From Niabella ginsenosidivorans (lineage in GTDB: Bacteria; Bacteroidota; Bacteroidia; Chitinophagales; Chitinophagaceae), in contig NZ_CP015772.1 of NCBI RefSeq assembly GCF_001654455.1, positions 5,456,001 through 5,520,000 of the forward strand: a stretch of DNA of 64,000 nt, in the 5' to 3' direction. The position numbers and the translations under genes were made by a program. A model generated the notes under the pieces. The model was given only the letters and a program-made list of their open reading frames with translations, did no database searches and was not told the DNA's origin. Positions within the stretch are counted from its first letter, which is position 1. The number at the start of each line of letters is the position of its first letter. This document shows positions 9,328 to 48,603 of this stretch, one piece after another.

Positions 9328-9460
9328 AAAAATTAGGAAGTATGTAAATGTGCAAGTATGAAAATGTAAAAAATTATTGGCGTCATTCACATTTCCCGGA
9401 TTTTTCACATTTTCATATTTCCAGGTTTTTCACATTCTCACATTAGTATATTAACAAATT
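9328..9460. repeat. AT-rich word repeat between actA and actB, partly inverted
   Basis: The word TATGAAAATGTAAAAAA at 9357-9373 has a near-perfect inverted copy at 9401-9417 (one mismatch in 17) and a direct partial copy at 9426-9440. The inverted pair could fold in the operon mRNA. There is no T-run of the terminator kind directly after it, and transcription must continue into actB. Confidence 0.6.
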
Positions 9461-12758: not shown

Positions 12759-14204
12759 ATGTCATTAAACAGATACGAATCGCAAGTACGGGGGCCGTTG
12801 GTTGTAGGAGATAAAGACTATCACCAGATCACAGAAGATATATGCCGCCCTGTAGAAGCCAGGCCAAGTAAATTATGGTGGGTAGGGTTTATTATTTCTT
12901 TAGGGCTCTTGCTGTTTGGTGTGGTATCCATTTATATGGACGTTACGTATGGTATCGGCCAGTGGAACCTGAACAAAACGATCGGCTGGGGATGGGATAT
13001 CACCAACTTCGTATGGTGGGTAGGTATTGGTCACGCCGGAACGCTGATCTCTGCTATCCTGCTGTTGTTCCGCCAGGGTTGGAGAACCGGGGTGAACCGT
13101 GCGGCTGAAGCGATGACCATCTTTGCGGTAATGTGCGCCGGCCAGTTTCCTATCTGGCACATGGGCCGGGTATGGAATGCATTTTTTGTGGCACCTTACC
13201 CCAATACCCGCGGTCCGTTATGGGTAAACTTTAACTCCCCGTTGTTGTGGGACGTGTTTGCGATCTCTACTTATTTTACTGTGTCTTTATTGTTCTGGTA
13301 TTCCGGTTTATTACCGGATCTGGCTACTCTGCGCGATCGGGCCAAGCTGAAATGGCGGAAACTGTTTTACGGGGTTGCTTCTTTTGGCTGGACGGGCAGT
13401 ACCAAGCACTGGCAGCGGCATGAAGCGTTATCGCTGGTATTGGCCGGTTTGGCAACACCGCTGGTACTTTCGGTGCATACCATCGTATCTTTCGACTTTG
13501 CTACTTCGGTAATTCCCGGTTGGCATACCACTATCTTCCCTCCTTACTTCGTTGCGGGTGCGGTATTTTCCGGTTTTGCTATGGTGCAAACGCTGTTGCT
13601 GGTAACAAGGAAGGTATTGAATCTGGAAGAATACATCACTATAGAGCACATTGATGTAATGAATAAGATCATTGTACTAACCGGCTCTATTGTGGGTATT
13701 GCATATTTAACGGAATTATTTATTGCCTGGTACAGCCACGTGGAATATGAATGGTTCGCGTTTAAGGAAAACAGGGTGAACCTTACCAGTCCTTATGGGT
13801 GGGCCTATTATTTAATGATGGGGTGTAACGTACTGTCTCCCCAGATATTCTGGTTCCGCAAAATGCGCAGGAACCTGCTGGTTACCTTCTTTATGAGCAT
13901 TCTGGTGAACATCGGTATGTGGTTTGAGCGTTTTGTAATTATCGTTACCTCTATTTACCGCGATTACTTACCGAGCTCCTGGAGCACCTATTATTCTCCT
14001 TCTATCTGGGAGATCGGATTCTATATGGGCACTTTTGGTTTGTTCTTTACCTGTTATTTCCTGTTCTCAAAATTCTTCCCGGTAATTGCTATGGCGGAAA
14101 TCAAACATATCCTCAAGCGGAGCGGGGATAACTTTAAGGAAGGAATGACGAAGGATGAGAACGAAACACTGGAGGAATTTGAGCATGAAAATGCGCATCA
14201 TTAA
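12759..14204 (+). CDS. actC: Alternative complex III subunit C, NrfD-like quinol-binding membrane protein
   Basis: A 481-residue integral membrane protein of the NrfD/PsrC family with about ten predicted helices, beginning with a short cytoplasmic N-terminus. ActC contacts the ActB iron-sulfur domain and carries the quinol site near the periplasmic face in ACIII structures. Recognisable family stretches include the WWVGIGHAGTLISAILLLFRQ helix region described here only in part and the conserved IWHMGR segment at about 129-134. The C-terminus is acidic and histidine-rich. It lies in the actABCDEF order seen across Bacteroidota. Confidence 0.95.
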   Translation: MSLNRYESQVRGPLVVGDKDYHQITEDICRPVEARPSKLWWVGFIISLGLLLFGVVSIYMDVTYGIGQWNLNKTIGWGWDITNFVWWVGIGHAGTLISAILLLFRQGWRTGVNRAAEAMTIFAVMCAGQFPIWHMGRVWNAFFVAPYPNTRGPLWVNFNSPLLWDVFAISTYFTVSLLFWYSGLLPDLATLRDRAKLKWRKLFYGVASFGWTGSTKHWQRHEALSLVLAGLATPLVLSVHTIVSFDFATSVIPGWHTTIFPPYFVAGAVFSGFAMVQTLLLVTRKVLNLEEYITIEHIDVMNKIIVLTGSIVGIAYLTELFIAWYSHVEYEWFAFKENRVNLTSPYGWAYYLMMGCNVLSPQIFWFRKMRRNLLVTFFMSILVNIGMWFERFVIIVTSIYRDYLPSSWSTYYSPSIWEIGFYMGTFGLFFTCYFLFSKFFPVIAMAEIKHILKRSGDNFKEGMTKDENETLEEFEHENAHH

Positions 14205-14282
14205 AAAATAATTTAAAGTTTAACGTTTAAGGTTTGAAAAACAATATCAAGCTATAAACATCAAACATCAAACAAGATATAA
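14205..14282. repeat. Short AT-rich word repeat between actC and actD
   Basis: A 78-bp spacer built of reiterated words (GTTTAACGTTTAAGGTTTG and AAACATCAAACATCAAACA). The same GTTTAA word recurs after the second subunit III gene near 22353. Confidence 0.5.
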
Positions 14283-18079: not shown

Positions 18080-19885
18080 ATGAGCGATACTTTACATATT
18101 CAGCATGAGGTTGCAAGCCATGGCCACTCCGGTGAGCCACATGTGCATCATCACAAAGAAACATTTATTTCCAAGTACATTTTCAGCATGGATCATAAAA
18201 TGATAGCCAAGCAGTTCCTGGTAACAGGGATCATCTGGGCAATTATTGGTGGTTTATTTTCGGTGCTGTTTCGCTTACAATTAGGATTCCCTGACCAGAG
18301 CTTTCCCATCCTGGAAACATTTTTCGGGCATTGGGCCGAAGGGGGCAAGATAAAACCGGAATTCTATTACGCCTTAACTACCATGCACGGAACGGTGCTC
18401 ATCTTCTTTGTGTTAACAGCAGGCCTTAGCGGAACCTTTGCCAACCTCCTCATTCCTTTGCAGGTGGGCGCCAGGGATATGGCCTCTCCGTTTATGAACA
18501 TGCTTTCCTACTGGATGTTCTTTGCTGCAAGTATCGTAATGATCTCTTCCCTGTTCACTCAAACAGGCCCTGCAGCAGGCGGGTGGACGGTTTATCCTCC
18601 GCTTAGCGCATTAGGTCAGGCTTCCCAGGGCTCCAAAAGCGGTATGGATCTGTGGATCATTGCCATGACACTTTTTGTGGCTTCTCAGCTCTTAGGCGGT
18701 CTGAATTATATTTCCACTATCTTAAATATGCGCACCAAGGGTATGGCTATGACACGGATGCCGCTCACCATCTGGGCGCTGCTGTTCACAGCTATATTAG
18801 GTGTATTGTCATTCCCCGTTTTATTATCCGGTCTGGTATTACTGATGTTCGACCGTCACCTGGGTACCAGCTTTTACCTGAGCGATATTTATATTGCCGG
18901 CCAGGCACTGCCTAATGAAGGGGGAAGCGCCATCCTTTATCAGCACCTGTTCTGGTTCCTGGGCCACCCCGAAGTGTATATCATCATTATGCCAACCATG
19001 GGGCTGGCATCAGAGATACTGGCCATCAATGCACGCAAACCGATCTTTGGTTATATGGCCATGATTGCATCATTAATGGCGATCTGTGTGCTGGCCTTCC
19101 TTGTATGGGCGCACCATATGTTTGTTACAGGTATGAACCCCTTCCTGGGATCGGTGTTTGTATTACTGACCCTGTTAATTGCCATTCCTTCTGCAATAAA
19201 GGTATTTAACTGGATCACCACCATCTGGCGGGGAAACCTGCGTTTTACACCGGCGATGCTCTTTGCAATAGGGTTTGTAAGCATCTTTATTTCCGGCGGT
19301 TTAACCGGTATCTGGTTAGGAAACTCTACTATCGATATTCACCTGCATGATACTATGTTCGTGATCGCGCACTTCCATATTGTAATGGGGGTATCTGCCT
19401 TCTTTGGCATGTTTGCAGGTATTTATCACTGGTACCCCAAATTGTTTGGCCGTTATATGAACAGTACATTAGGGTACATCCATTTTTGGGTAACACTGGT
19501 ATGTGCCTACCTTATTTTCTGGCCAATGCACTACCAGGGGCTGGCAGGTATGCCAAGGCGTTATCTTGACAAGAGCAGTTGGGCAAGTTTCAGCCAGTTT
19601 CATGGTTTGGATGCCATGATCACCGTGGTTACCATCATCGCTTTTTCTGTACAGTTAATGTTTGTATTCAACTATTTCTATTCCATGTACAAAGGAAAAA
19701 GAGTGCGGTCTCAGAATCCATGGGGCGCAACTACACTGGAGTGGACCACTCCTATTCATCCCGGCCATGGTAACTGGGAAGGAGAAATTCCTGAAGTGCA
19801 CCGCTGGGCTTATGATTACGGTAAGGATGGAAGAGATTTTATTCCCCAGACAGAACCGGTGGGTGAAAATGAATCAGAACATTAG
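18080..19885 (+). CDS. coxA: Cytochrome c oxidase subunit I (haem-copper catalytic subunit)
   Basis: A 601-residue A-type haem-copper oxidase core with 12 helices. Ligands seen: His103 and His433 for the low-spin haem, His431 for the high-spin haem, and CuB ligands His296, His345 and His346; the His296-Tyr300 pair (HPEVY) forms the usual cross-link. The N-terminal ~25 residues are His-rich. It reduces oxygen to water and pumps protons. It sits 35 bp after subunit II. Confidence 0.97.
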   Translation: MSDTLHIQHEVASHGHSGEPHVHHHKETFISKYIFSMDHKMIAKQFLVTGIIWAIIGGLFSVLFRLQLGFPDQSFPILETFFGHWAEGGKIKPEFYYALTTMHGTVLIFFVLTAGLSGTFANLLIPLQVGARDMASPFMNMLSYWMFFAASIVMISSLFTQTGPAAGGWTVYPPLSALGQASQGSKSGMDLWIIAMTLFVASQLLGGLNYISTILNMRTKGMAMTRMPLTIWALLFTAILGVLSFPVLLSGLVLLMFDRHLGTSFYLSDIYIAGQALPNEGGSAILYQHLFWFLGHPEVYIIIMPTMGLASEILAINARKPIFGYMAMIASLMAICVLAFLVWAHHMFVTGMNPFLGSVFVLLTLLIAIPSAIKVFNWITTIWRGNLRFTPAMLFAIGFVSIFISGGLTGIWLGNSTIDIHLHDTMFVIAHFHIVMGVSAFFGMFAGIYHWYPKLFGRYMNSTLGYIHFWVTLVCAYLIFWPMHYQGLAGMPRRYLDKSSWASFSQFHGLDAMITVVTIIAFSVQLMFVFNYFYSMYKGKRVRSQNPWGATTLEWTTPIHPGHGNWEGEIPEVHRWAYDYGKDGRDFIPQTEPVGENESEH

Positions 19886-19923
19886 TTAATGGTGAATAGT
19901 CAAGAGTAAATGTCCATTGGCTA

Positions 19924-20841
19924 TTGACTAAATATAAAAAATTGAAAAGATCAGGAGAGGGTGGAGTAAGGGATTTTCTCCAGTTAATGAAGCCCTCATT
20001 AAGTATAATGGTGGTTTTCAGCAGTGTGATCAGTTACCTGCTGGTGCCCGATGTGATGTATGACTGGTGGAGGATTGTTTTGCTCTTTGCAGGTGGAATG
20101 CTGGTAACCGGCAGCGCTAATACCATCAACCAGGTTGTGGAAAAGGATACAGATGCTCAAATGAAAAGAACTGCAAAACGGCCTGTTGCTTCAGGAAGAT
20201 TAAGCCCTGAACAGGGTTGGGGATTTGCAATTTTTACAGGAGCATTGGGCATTTTTGTCCTGGGCTATTATTTTAACTGGACGGCAGCTACTCTTGCAGC
20301 CTTTAGCCTGTTTTTATATGCCTTTGTTTATACACCGCTGAAAAAAGTTAATTCAGTAGCTGTTTTAGTAGGTGCTTTTCCCGGCGCGCTGCCCTGTTTA
20401 ATTGGCTGGGTAGCCGGGTATGTTCCGGGACAGCCCATCAACTGGTTAGGCGGTATTATTATGTTCGGCATCCAGTTCCTTTGGCAGTTTCCCCATTTCT
20501 GGGCTATTGCATGGGTAGCGCATAAGGACTACAGCAACGTGGGGTTTAAATTACTGCCCAGTGAAAAAGGGCCTACAAAATTTACGGCCCTGCAAACAGT
20601 AGTATATGCGCTTTTGATGTTGCCCATTACCGTTGCGCCTTTTTTTGTGGGAATTTGCAGCTACAACAATGTAAAAGGAATGACAGGGCTTGGGTTGATC
20701 ATACTTGCGAATATTTTTTTAATAGCAAGGGCGGTAGCGCTTTATTCCCGGATGGATGTGCCTGCTGCACGCAGGGTAATGTTTGGCAGCTATATTCATT
20801 TACCCGTGGTATTGCTGGCCTTGTTGCTGGCAAAATCCTGA
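19924..20841 (+). CDS. ctaB: Protohaem IX farnesyltransferase (haem O synthase)
   Basis: A 305-residue UbiA-type membrane prenyltransferase that makes haem O for the oxidase. The first Asp-rich motif NQVVEKDTDAQMKRT is followed by AKRPVASG, and the second region NVGFKLLP lies near 200. There is no ATG before the conserved first helix, so translation must start at TTG: either 19924 or 19942; the latter lies outside the word repeat (19890-19930) that precedes the gene. ctaA (haem A synthase) is not in the window. Confidence 0.92.
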   Translation: MTKYKKLKRSGEGGVRDFLQLMKPSLSIMVVFSSVISYLLVPDVMYDWWRIVLLFAGGMLVTGSANTINQVVEKDTDAQMKRTAKRPVASGRLSPEQGWGFAIFTGALGIFVLGYYFNWTAATLAAFSLFLYAFVYTPLKKVNSVAVLVGAFPGALPCLIGWVAGYVPGQPINWLGGIIMFGIQFLWQFPHFWAIAWVAHKDYSNVGFKLLPSEKGPTKFTALQTVVYALLMLPITVAPFFVGICSYNNVKGMTGLGLIILANIFLIARAVALYSRMDVPAARRVMFGSYIHLPVVLLALLLAKS

Positions 20842-30719: not shown

Positions 30720-31712
30720 ATGATCCGTATTGGTACCAGAGACAGTCAGCTGGCCGTATGGCAGGCCACCCAGGTAAAAAATCTATTAGAAAATTTTGGA
30801 GTTCCCGCGCAGTTAGAGCCCATCAAAAGTGAAGGGGATCTTGACCTGACAACGCCCCTGTATGCAATGGGGGTACAGGGAGTATTTACAAGGGCGCTGG
30901 ATGCTGCTTTGCTGAGTAATAAAATTGATGTAGCGGTGCACAGCATGAAGGACGTGCCGGTACAATTACCGGAAGGAATTGTGGAAGCGGCTGTTCTGGA
31001 ACGTGCTTCTTATAAAGACATCCTGGTTTTGAACGAAAACTGGAAGCCTCCTTTCCCCGGCCGGGACCTTAATAGGATCAAAGAGGCTGTTTCCGGCAGG
31101 ACCCCGGATCTCATATCTCAGACCCCGGATCTCATATCTCAGATCCCGGATCTGGCAATTGCTACCAGCAGTGTACGTCGTAAGGCCCAATGGTTGCACC
31201 GTTTTCCGGGGTGCACTATTGAAAATATCCGGGGAAATGTAAATACCCGTTTACGCAGGCTTGCAGAAAGTAACTGGCTGGGGGCCATCTTTGCTGCGGC
31301 CGGTCTGGAGCGCATTGGTTTAAGACCAGCCAACAGTATAGATCTTAACTGGATGCTCCCGGCTCCGGCACAGGGAGCCATTATGGTTACGGCAAGAGGC
31401 AGCGATATAAGAACATTAAGAGCCTGTAACCGCATCAATCATGTGCAGACTGCATTTTGTGTAAAAGCGGAGCGCGATTTTTTAAGTGAGCTGATGGGCG
31501 GATGCGCTACTCCTATAAGCGCACTGGCAATACTGGAAAAAGACCATCTTCATTTTAGAGGAAGCGTGGTAAGCCCGGACGGTACAGAAAAAGCAGAGGT
31601 TGATGAAATCTATTCTCTTAATGATATAAAAACACCGGGTAAACAGGCTGCGGCGGTTATTTTAAATAAGGGAGCAAAAGCCATTATTGCAAAGATGAAT
31701 AATGAAAAATGA
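30720..31712 (+). CDS. hemC: Hydroxymethylbilane synthase (porphobilinogen deaminase), with a repeat insertion
   Basis: A 330-residue enzyme that condenses four porphobilinogens. N-terminal IRIGTRDSQLAVWQA, HSMKDVP (~82-88), TSSVRRKAQ (~148-156) and the dipyrromethane attachment Cys262 (GGCATPISAL) are all present. Just before TSSVRR the protein carries a reiterated PDLISQ heptad (about residues 128-146), encoded by 21-bp tandem repeats, in a loop where most HemC proteins are shorter. The frame is kept, so activity is probably retained. The end overlaps hemD by 11 bp. Confidence 0.95.
   Translation: MIRIGTRDSQLAVWQATQVKNLLENFGVPAQLEPIKSEGDLDLTTPLYAMGVQGVFTRALDAALLSNKIDVAVHSMKDVPVQLPEGIVEAAVLERASYKDILVLNENWKPPFPGRDLNRIKEAVSGRTPDLISQTPDLISQIPDLAIATSSVRRKAQWLHRFPGCTIENIRGNVNTRLRRLAESNWLGAIFAAAGLERIGLRPANSIDLNWMLPAPAQGAIMVTARGSDIRTLRACNRINHVQTAFCVKAERDFLSELMGGCATPISALAILEKDHLHFRGSVVSPDGTEKAEVDEIYSLNDIKTPGKQAAAVILNKGAKAIIAKMNNEK
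31100..31153 (+). repeat. 21-bp tandem repeat inside hemC
   Basis: Two perfect 21-bp copies (31100-31120 and 31121-31141) and a degenerate third start (31142-31153). Each copy encodes seven residues with core PDLISQ. The copies contain the 12-mer TCTCATATCTCA at 31109-31120 and 31130-31141; the same 12-mer occurs in the intergenic repeat at 42225-42236. Confidence 0.9.
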
Positions 31713-41189: not shown

Positions 41190-41258
41190 AAGCTGATCAC
41201 GGACTGATTACTGAAATCTGATCTCTCAATTCTCAACACTCAAATCTTAATTCTTACC
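41190..41258. repeat. Word-like intergenic repeat
   Basis: 69 bp dominated by related words: TGATCTCTCAATTCTCAACA and CTCAAATCTTAATTCTTACC. CTCAATTCT is shared with the repeat at 42120-42247. Confidence 0.5.
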
Positions 41259-42119: not shown

Positions 42120-42247
42120 GGAGTTATCAGCGGTCAGAGATCAGTTTTCAGTAAGCAGCGCCTGATAACTAGGAACTGAACACCTGTCTGACGTTGCTTC
42201 AGCATCCGGGCCTGATGTCTGACGTCTCATATCTCATTCCTGATATC
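42120..42247. repeat. Word-like intergenic repeat with TCTCATATCTCA
   Basis: 128 bp between convergent genes, made of degenerate words: GGTCAGAGATCAGTTTTCAG, CTGATAACTAGGAACTGA, GTCTGACGTCTCATATCTCA, CTGATATCTCAATTCTTCC. The 12-mer at 42225-42236 is identical to the one repeated in hemC. Confidence 0.6.
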
Positions 42248-43072
42248 TCAATTCTTCCTGATCAACGCAGTCATAGGATTTTTCAGGTTGTCAAAGCTGG
42301 TCATTTCTATTTTTACCTTTCCTACTATGATCGGGCTTTCCACGCGTACCGGCACTTTATTAGCATCATCTGTAACCCATACCGTCATTTTTTCACCACC
42401 TTCAAAGATGGTGCCCTTAATGGTGAGGGGCTTAATTTTTATAGTTTTGAACTTTCCGTATTTGGTGGTAATGGTTTCTTTACCCATATACCGTATATAC
42501 ATATCATAAATTTCATTATCCAGGAACAGGCTAAAAGCAATACGGTCGCCCGGTTTCAGGGCATTGTAATCAATATTGCGGGCATAAAAAACAGCGCTCA
42601 CCACATCCTGCATACAGGCCGGTGTTTTAAACACCCCTTCGCTGCTGATGGCTGTATTGGCCGATTTATTAAAGCTTACATTCTGGTATTTCTTATAGCC
42701 ACCTTCACTGATGTTCCGTATGAACTTAAGCGGTTGCATGGTTTCTATATCAACATACGTTTCATAGGTATCATTTACCTTGTAGGCCCATTCATAGGAA
42801 GATAAGGTGCGTCCTGTGCCTTTGATATGATAAACCGTGCGGCCATTCAGTTTCTCAAGCGTGGTGGCGAAAGAGCCGGTACCGGCAGGTACAAAAACAC
42901 CTCCCACACTATAGCCCACAGTAAAGCCTACTTTTTCACCAGGCTGAAAGGCAGAATTGGGAATGGCGCATCCTGACTGTAGAGTTGCAACAGAAGGTTT
43001 TTCAGCCGGGGTCTTTTCTCCGGCAGCAAACAGCATAAAAAATGGAACCAGAAATAAACTAAGCGTTTTCAT
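42248..43072 (-). CDS. DUF3108-containing secreted protein
   Basis: A 274-residue protein with a signal peptide (first ~20 residues). From about residue 30 it follows the DUF3108 pattern: FQPGEKVGFTVGYSVGGVFVPAGTGSF, a middle YETYVDIETMQPLKFIRNISEGGY, and FYARNIDYNALKPGDRIAFS then a GKFKTIKIKPL strand and WVTDDANKVPVRVE. The family is periplasmic and of unknown function. It overlaps the upstream flippase-like gene by 14 bp, so the two are coupled. Confidence 0.88.
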   Translation of the reverse strand: MKTLSLFLVPFFMLFAAGEKTPAEKPSVATLQSGCAIPNSAFQPGEKVGFTVGYSVGGVFVPAGTGSFATTLEKLNGRTVYHIKGTGRTLSSYEWAYKVNDTYETYVDIETMQPLKFIRNISEGGYKKYQNVSFNKSANTAISSEGVFKTPACMQDVVSAVFYARNIDYNALKPGDRIAFSLFLDNEIYDMYIRYMGKETITTKYGKFKTIKIKPLTIKGTIFEGGEKMTVWVTDDANKVPVRVESPIIVGKVKIEMTSFDNLKNPMTALIRKN

Positions 43073-48132: not shown

Positions 48133-48603
48133 TTATATACTGATCTCTTCAATTTTAAACTGGATAACCCCGGCCGGCGCCTGCACATCTGCCACCTCTC
48201 CGGGCTCTTTGCCCAGGATGCCTTTGCCGATAGGCGAGGTAATGGATATTTTTCCGGCTTTAAGATCTGCCTCCTGCTCGCTGACCAATTGGTAGGTTAC
48301 CTGTTTCTTTGTTTTAAGATTGGTGAGCTTGACCTTGGTCAGTATGGAAACCTTGCTGGTATCGATAGTGGATTCATCCACTACCCGTGCGTTAGCCAGT
48401 GCGCCTTCCAGCGCGGCTATCTTTGCTTCCAGTATGCCCTGGGCCTCTTTTGCGGCATCATATTCTGCGTTTTCTTTTAAGTCGCCTTTTTCACGTGCTT
48501 CGGCAATAGCCTTGCTTGCAGCAGGGCGCTCCACACTTTTCATATGCTGCAGCTCTTCCTTCATTTGCTCCAGCGTTTCCTTTGTTACATATTGGATACT
48601 CAT
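48133..48603 (-). CDS. greA: Transcription elongation factor GreA
   Basis: A 156-residue protein with the N-terminal coiled coil (residues ~5-75, with the acidic DLKENAEYDAAKEAQ tip) and a C-terminal FKBP-like domain (SPIGKGILGKEPGEVADVQAP). GreA rescues backtracked RNA polymerase by stimulating transcript cleavage. Own terminator downstream. Confidence 0.97.
   Translation of the reverse strand: MSIQYVTKETLEQMKEELQHMKSVERPAASKAIAEAREKGDLKENAEYDAAKEAQGILEAKIAALEGALANARVVDESTIDTSKVSILTKVKLTNLKTKKQVTYQLVSEQEADLKAGKISITSPIGKGILGKEPGEVADVQAPAGVIQFKIEEISI

Follow-up and report, generated by a model that had tools for sequence, protein, structure and literature searches.

An in-frame array of heptamer words in hemC of Niabella ginsenosidivorans and lag-7 arrays in HemC, AroA and MetG of related genomes

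The hemC gene of Niabella ginsenosidivorans raises the question of how a repeat that belongs mostly to the sequence between genes could come to lie, in frame, inside the gene for an essential enzyme. It seems that a spreading repeat has been accepted again and again inside this vital protein. The gene lies in a stretch of 64,000 nucleotides analysed here as a whole (the window; positions 5,456,001 to 5,520,000 of contig NZ_CP015772.1). Its product matches PF01379 (3.8e-62) and PF03900 (1.5e-13), a glutamyl-tRNA reductase gene precedes it, hemD and hemE follow, and a single match in its own genome marks it as single-copy. The features considered below are collected in Table 1.

Table 1 hemC, its array and the intergenic heptamer arrays of the window
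Feature	Position	Strand	Basis
hemC, porphobilinogen deaminase / hydroxymethylbilane synthase, 330 aa	30720..31712	+	ORF, Pfam, PDB relatives such as 1pda
In-frame heptamer-word array in hemC, 21-bp unit x2 and partial third; codons 127-145	31100..31153	+	sequence, TRF, lag-7 score
TCTCATATCTCA copy 1 in hemC	31109..31120	+	sequence search
TCTCATATCTCA copy 2 in hemC	31130..31141	+	sequence search
Intergenic heptamer array with TCTCATATCTCA at 42225-42236	42210..42255	+	lag-7 score 15.6
Intergenic heptamer array, CTGA words passing into CTCA words	41203..41256	+	lag-7 score 21.8
Intergenic degenerate heptamer array, other words	19881..19948	.	lag-7 score 17.8
Intergenic A+T-rich heptamer array	14200..14237	.	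lag-7 score 14.8

The initial annotation described two perfect 21-bp copies and a degenerate third, in frame, and both the sequence and TRF agree with this. The same 21 bases, GACCCCGGATCTCATATCTCA, make up both copy 1 (31100-31120) and copy 2 (31121-31141), the partial third copy occupies 31142-31153, and the surrounding reading frame runs ..RTPDLISQTPDLISQIPDLAIATSS.. through the array. TRF reports a period of 21 with 2.6 copies, 96% matches and a score of 101, and also a period of 7 over 31107-31153. Cut into heptamers, the array runs GACCCCG GATCTCA TATCTCA GACCCCG GATCTCA TATCTCA GATCCCG GATCT; its basic unit is 7 nt, and three heptamer words make up the 21. The lag-7 score of 20.2 compares with a codon-shuffle maximum of 9.0 (p 0.001). 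Among 858 overlapping 45-codon segments from the window's ORFs of at least 150 aa, only two reach a lag-7 score of 12 or more, both on the hemC array, with none at control lags 5, 8, 10 and 11 and three at lag 13. A script search of 31091-31165, covering arms of 6 to 8 bp and spacers up to 9, found inverted repeats with arms of at most 7 bp, and TAACTGA and TCAGTTA are absent from the sequence of the array. TRF lists two other tandem repeats in the window, at 48539-48582 (21-bp unit, 2.1 copies) and at 9386-9444 (25-bp unit, 2.3 copies).

A 12-mer in each hemC copy had been matched to one between genes at 42225-42236, and the identity is exact: TCTCATATCTCA starts at 31109, 31130 and 42225, and the window still holds only these three when one mismatch is allowed (0.22 expected). 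In the whole 5,627,734-bp genome, a single contig, it has five exact copies, three of them outside hemC, against 0.19 expected from an order-3 Markov model and none for the reversed control; the excess over chance on which the claim of a family had been made to depend is present. The heptamer repertoire to which this 12-mer belongs is large and degenerate. The pattern CTCAN3CTCAN3CTCA has 43 matches in the same genome, overlapping matches within one array being counted separately, against 2 for the reversed control and 0.12 expected. The location of 30 of the 43 was checked with a simple ORF caller: 24 are intergenic and six fall in the ORFs of four genes, namely metG (two), aroA (one), a glycosidase with family-2 domains (one) and a WYL regulator (two). 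At locus L066 of this genome the CTCA words run over the final codons of the WYL-domain regulator, and at L071 they lie inside the glycosidase ORF.

The preference for intergenic DNA is also seen when no word is chosen beforehand. In a sample from two genomes, divided by a simple ORF caller, the 134.6 kb of intergenic sequence contains 23 lag-7 arrays and the 1,065 kb of coding sequence only 8; some arrays scored as 'coding' in the sampled stretches fall in ORFs that are possibly not genes. Control lags 5, 8, 10, 11 and 13 gave 4, 5, 2, 0 and 1 intergenic and 2, 1, 2, 1 and 0 coding arrays. A grid chosen ahead of all genome-wide array searches shows, taken alone, a small intergenic excess (five at lag 7, two at lag 10); the other sampled stretches, including those of genome G015, were chosen by spacing, but after the genome match lists had been seen. 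An earlier lag-7 tally had taken in the window and stretches chosen once matches were known, and the 23 to 8 tally is used in its place. Owing to the degeneracy of the arrays, plain autocorrelation and a strict array score pick up little at lag 7, and a relaxed score was adopted afterwards. Word families are mixed in single arrays, as at 41203-41256, where CTGA words give way to CTCA words, and TCAGTTA-like words are present in some intergenic arrays. Palindrome-like sites are too few to tie short palindromes to the arrays: two in the sample from the source genome, none near an array, and two in that from G015, one near an array. Short palindromes also lie beside intergenic arrays at L056 and L073.

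Across HemC relatives it is the position of the insert that is conserved, at the loop between the DILV strand and IATSSxRR, and not its peptide heptads, so that these are no constant part of a normal HemC; the length of the loop varies. From 72 loci, less six duplicates and one without an intact ORF, 65 loops were tested; G007 had no hemC match. A lag-7 array is present in 15 of the 16 same-genus (Niabella-group) genomes (p 0.001-0.006 against codon-order shuffles), the sole exception being G009 (p 0.73), and in the HemC loops that score, lag 7 outscores the other lags from 4 to 13. The words differ by genome: AAATCTC in G010, AAACCTG in G011, AAATCAG in G008, AAACGTC in G016, AATTCTC in G015 and CAACTGT in G001. 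The idea that a mostly intergenic family can grow inside an essential gene when its period is a multiple of three stands for the family words, their reading frame and the single-copy hemC, but as worded it is not supported for the period. The repeat steps by 7 nt, and it is the insert as a whole whose length divides by three. The inserts in the nine closest genomes measure 41, 43, 42, 35, 35, 35, 35, 35 and 37 codons and so do not differ in seven-codon steps alone. Stops occur in the other frames of most inserts, but random sequence would have them too, which gives no ground for stop avoidance by choice of word. In the hemC of G008 (L007) a short palindrome of the CCGATAGCTATCGG type lies within the in-frame heptamer array and is translated, and in the assemblies of G002 (hemC at L033) and G003 (hemC at L034) neither hemC nor metG reads through, the genes shifting between frames or meeting stops, perhaps through sequencing error.

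Outside the genus, five of 49 HemC loops reach p 0.001, namely L021, Longitalea luteola (L092), Niastella populi (L093), Lacibacter luteus (L095) and a Chitinophagales MAG (L104), and seven more fall at p 0.01-0.05, where about two are expected. Twelve of the 13 other Chitinophagaceae-family genomes are without a clear lag-7 HemC loop, L021 alone reaching p 0.001, and none of the mostly flavobacterial loops L107-L125 and L127 does so, one (L117) standing at 0.021. The genus of G023 has eight genomes, six with hemC, and four of these six genes, L021 among them, are at p 0.001; L242 has p 0.003 but scores higher at another lag (13.0 against 10.0), and L240 has p 0.45.

Mapped on structure, as the initial annotation had proposed, the array takes up a loop that the HemC model predicts with low confidence. 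The AF2 model has a pLDDT of 87.7 and a pTM of 0.87 and resembles solved HemC structures (1ah5, TM 0.80). In the array loop pLDDT falls to 71 over residues 121-130 and to 56 over 131-140, and short, low-confidence helices are predicted there; a second low region spans residues 41-60 (59 and 69). The corresponding site in E. coli HemC is between chain residues about 111 and 127.

The array is peculiar neither to hemC nor to the source species. In AroA a lag-7 array precedes the VEGDWSGG motif in eight of the 12 genomes tested; nine of the 12 are at p 0.001, G001 being left uncounted since another lag scores higher (8.8 against 8.4), and G004, G007 and G009 have no array. The motif failed in G015, and G002, G003, G012 and G013 offered fragments, so these were left out. 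In MetG the array lies in the linker before the C-terminal tRNA-binding domain in nine of the 13 genomes tested and is missing from G004, G007, G009 and G012; G013 and G014 (motif failed), G002 and G003 were left out. Short palindromes are translated within in-frame arrays at L188 (G000 aroA), L209 (G008 metG) and L234 (G015 metG), all of the CCGATAGCTATCGG type, and at L211 (G006 metG), as CCCCGAGGCTTCGGGG. The AroA loops of L196 (G001) and of L198 and L206 (G002) hold G+C-rich runs in place of heptamers (a CTCCGGAGG-type palindrome, CCCCC/GGGGGG), which look like a different repeat family in this position. In the source genome the minus-strand valS gene (valyl-tRNA synthetase) carries a short array just before the conserved LDTWFSS (L043:5812-5844), whose words CATTGAC-CATTCAC-CAATCAC-CATTGAT encode NIDHSPITIDD; its lag-7 p of 0.0005 was obtained on a segment picked by scanning and is hence not an independent test.

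The words track the genome, recurring more across the three genes of one genome than across genomes. Shared 8-mers number 7.8 within a genome against 3.0 between genomes for the hemC and aroA inserts (p 0.011, n 11), 7.2 against 3.1 for hemC and metG (p 0.002, n 12) and 4.7 against 2.0 for aroA and metG (p 0.033, n 11). Over k from 7 to 10 the p values for these pairs are 0.007-0.023, 0.0007-0.015 and 0.010-0.044, respectively, from tests that overlap one another and without correction for their number. Within the closest genomes alone, hemC and metG are the sole pair staying clear (p 0.004-0.009, n 8); hemC and aroA give 0.037-0.068 (n 8) and aroA and metG 0.056-0.20 (n 7). Counts over whole genomes agree with this for some words. 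(C/T)TGAAAC words occur in the hemC of G005, G010, G014, G011 and G006, and among 17 genomes CCTGAAACYTNAAAC has its highest counts, hemC sites included, in the same five (37, 26, 22, 20 and 19), with none in the source genome, 2 in G015, 6 in G008, 8 in G016 and 13 in G002. The correspondence is not complete: G002 has 13 CCTGAAAC matches despite other words in its hemC, G011 has 36 CTCA triples despite a hemC array of AAACCTG words, and AAATCAG pairs are more frequent in G016 (14) than in G008 (6), though it is the hemC of G008 that uses this word. CTCA triples number 1 in G008 and 0 in G016, both without a CTCA array in hemC, and 31 in G001 against 25 in its control. AAACGTS triples occur in two of the 17 genomes, G016 (four overlapping matches at two sites, one being hemC) and G008 (two overlapping matches at one site).

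How, then, did the array enter hemC? On balance we favour, as rather probable, a species-specific, slippage-driven family of heptamers that spreads within its genome and persists in genes only at tolerant loops, provided that its length as a whole divides by three and it brings in no stop. On this view the hemC array would be one member of a degenerate 7-nt repeat family found throughout the genome, and the repertoire of heptamer words, mostly located between genes, would be particular to each species. The arrays would lengthen and shorten by tandem duplication, through replication slippage in a 7-nt step, and then gather substitutions; we infer this because the substitution patterns fit duplication with uniform substitution, a model rejected in only two of 30 arrays when the spread over the seven positions is examined. 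Words may be spread or exchanged between loci of one genome, perhaps by templated repair or by template switching at short homology, since unrelated genes of one genome share them. In genes, arrays would persist at a free loop or linker, between the DILV strand and IATSSxRR in HemC, before VEGDWSGG in AroA and in the linker of MetG, with selection holding each insert to a whole number of codons and its frame open. Near-neutrality for the enzymes is suggested because every site is a loop or linker and the modelled HemC fold is intact.

Another idea, that each heptamer combines an invariant core with changeable positions, as a templated or protein-bound unit might, was rejected. A naive test is positive in 18 of 32 arrays, but the comparison of adjacent units counts one substitution twice, and the null of tandem duplication with uniform substitution is rejected in only two of 30.

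It is possible, if on the less likely side, that the heptamer words in current use in a genome are actively copied into essential genes, at fixed sites that tolerate them, the HemC, AroA and MetG loops evolving in concert with the intergenic arrays. If so, the loops would be rewritten as the vocabulary of the species changes, and the HemC loop would be a true insertion hot spot and not a place of tolerance only. It is doubtful that slippage acted purely locally, each loop starting a 7-nt repeat out of the bases already there (such as TTCACCATTGC, encoding FTIA before TSS in some relatives) and resembling intergenic words by convergence from a common mutational preference, with no movement at all. 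CATTCAC-type words do merge into the native FTIATSS bases in Niastella populi and genus g8, and the substitution patterns require no template; however, words are common to unrelated genes of one genome more than to the same genes of different genomes, and the 12-mer TCTCATATCTCA is exact in hemC and at three other sites of its genome.

A single ancestral HemC-loop array, inherited and diverging in the family with no later arrivals, is unlikely. G005, G006, G010 and G014 have parts of the loop in common (DPETLN..., ...TFPLTIATSS), so that part of it is inherited, but the words of other members (AAATCAG, AAACGTC, AATTCTC, CAACTGT) are wholly different, and 12 of 13 other family genomes show no clear array. 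Selection on the protein for a flexible or heptad-patterned loop, with the DNA repeat as by-product, fits the finding that all three sites are loops or linkers that stay open; it is very improbable given a 7-nt DNA period that is no codon multiple and exceeds codon-order shuffles, and peptides that differ with no common pattern. An assembly error in the window is scarcely credible: the copy number of a tandem repeat needs reads to check, but lag-7 arrays in the same loop of independent assemblies of other species refute an error in all save the exact number of copies.

A repeat whose unit is not a codon multiple thus stands within three essential enzymes, at fixed interior loops, in many species, and its words follow the host genome. 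These arrays amount to a natural experiment on the spread of simple bacterial repeats, on why the step is seven bases and on the origin of loop insertions in conserved proteins. The loops of HemC, AroA and MetG that bear them are poor characters for alignments and trees.

Long simple sequence repeats (SSRs) of bacteria were reportedly the subject of a study by Mrazek in 2007. Heptameric repeats, and in-frame repeat insertions such as those of Rickettsia, are known already; we did not find the two combined in the literature searched, and a search by title and abstract opening, mostly within papers outside subscription, returned no heptamer arrays in HemC, AroA, MetG or Niabella. Heptameric repeats are described as over-represented in many bacterial genomes, with a polymerase-sized slippage step proposed (PMC4679880, PMC4692102), and they include the heterogeneous (GGGANTN)n of Xanthomonas and GGGGA(T/C)T of Nostoc (PMC4692102). 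The present arrays share with bacterial heptameric SSRs the 7-nt unit, degenerate units, dispersal and over-representation between genes; tandem 7-nt units (TRF periods 7 and 21) and the intergenic excess were both found here. Unlike those of Xanthomonas and Nostoc, they mix many word families in one array, occupy the same interior loops of essential enzymes across species, and do not feature the G runs of G-quadruplexes in their words.

TAACTGA direct repeats occur in Beggiatoaceae, Cyanobacteria and five Bacteroidetes; most lie a short way ahead of start codons, and those inside Beggiatoaceae ORFs are mostly at protein ends (PMC4679880). They too are direct repeats of a heptamer, mostly intergenic with some in ORFs, and some TAACTGA arrays of Bacteroidetes adjoin other heptamers; TAACTGA is, however, one heptamer in that account, whereas the present words differ from one species to the next and are found within HemC, AroA and MetG at interior loops. 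Rickettsia palindromic elements (RPE) are hairpin elements of 105-146 bp found between genes and in frame in conserved protein genes, and a guanylate kinase bearing one is active (PMC2229807). Those elements have terminal inverted repeats, whereas the hemC array is 54 bp of 7-nt words, short of their size, and palindromes of about 14-24 bp occur in only some of the present arrays. What the two have in common is behaviour and not membership: intergenic copies together with in-frame insertion in conserved genes, here hemC, aroA and metG.
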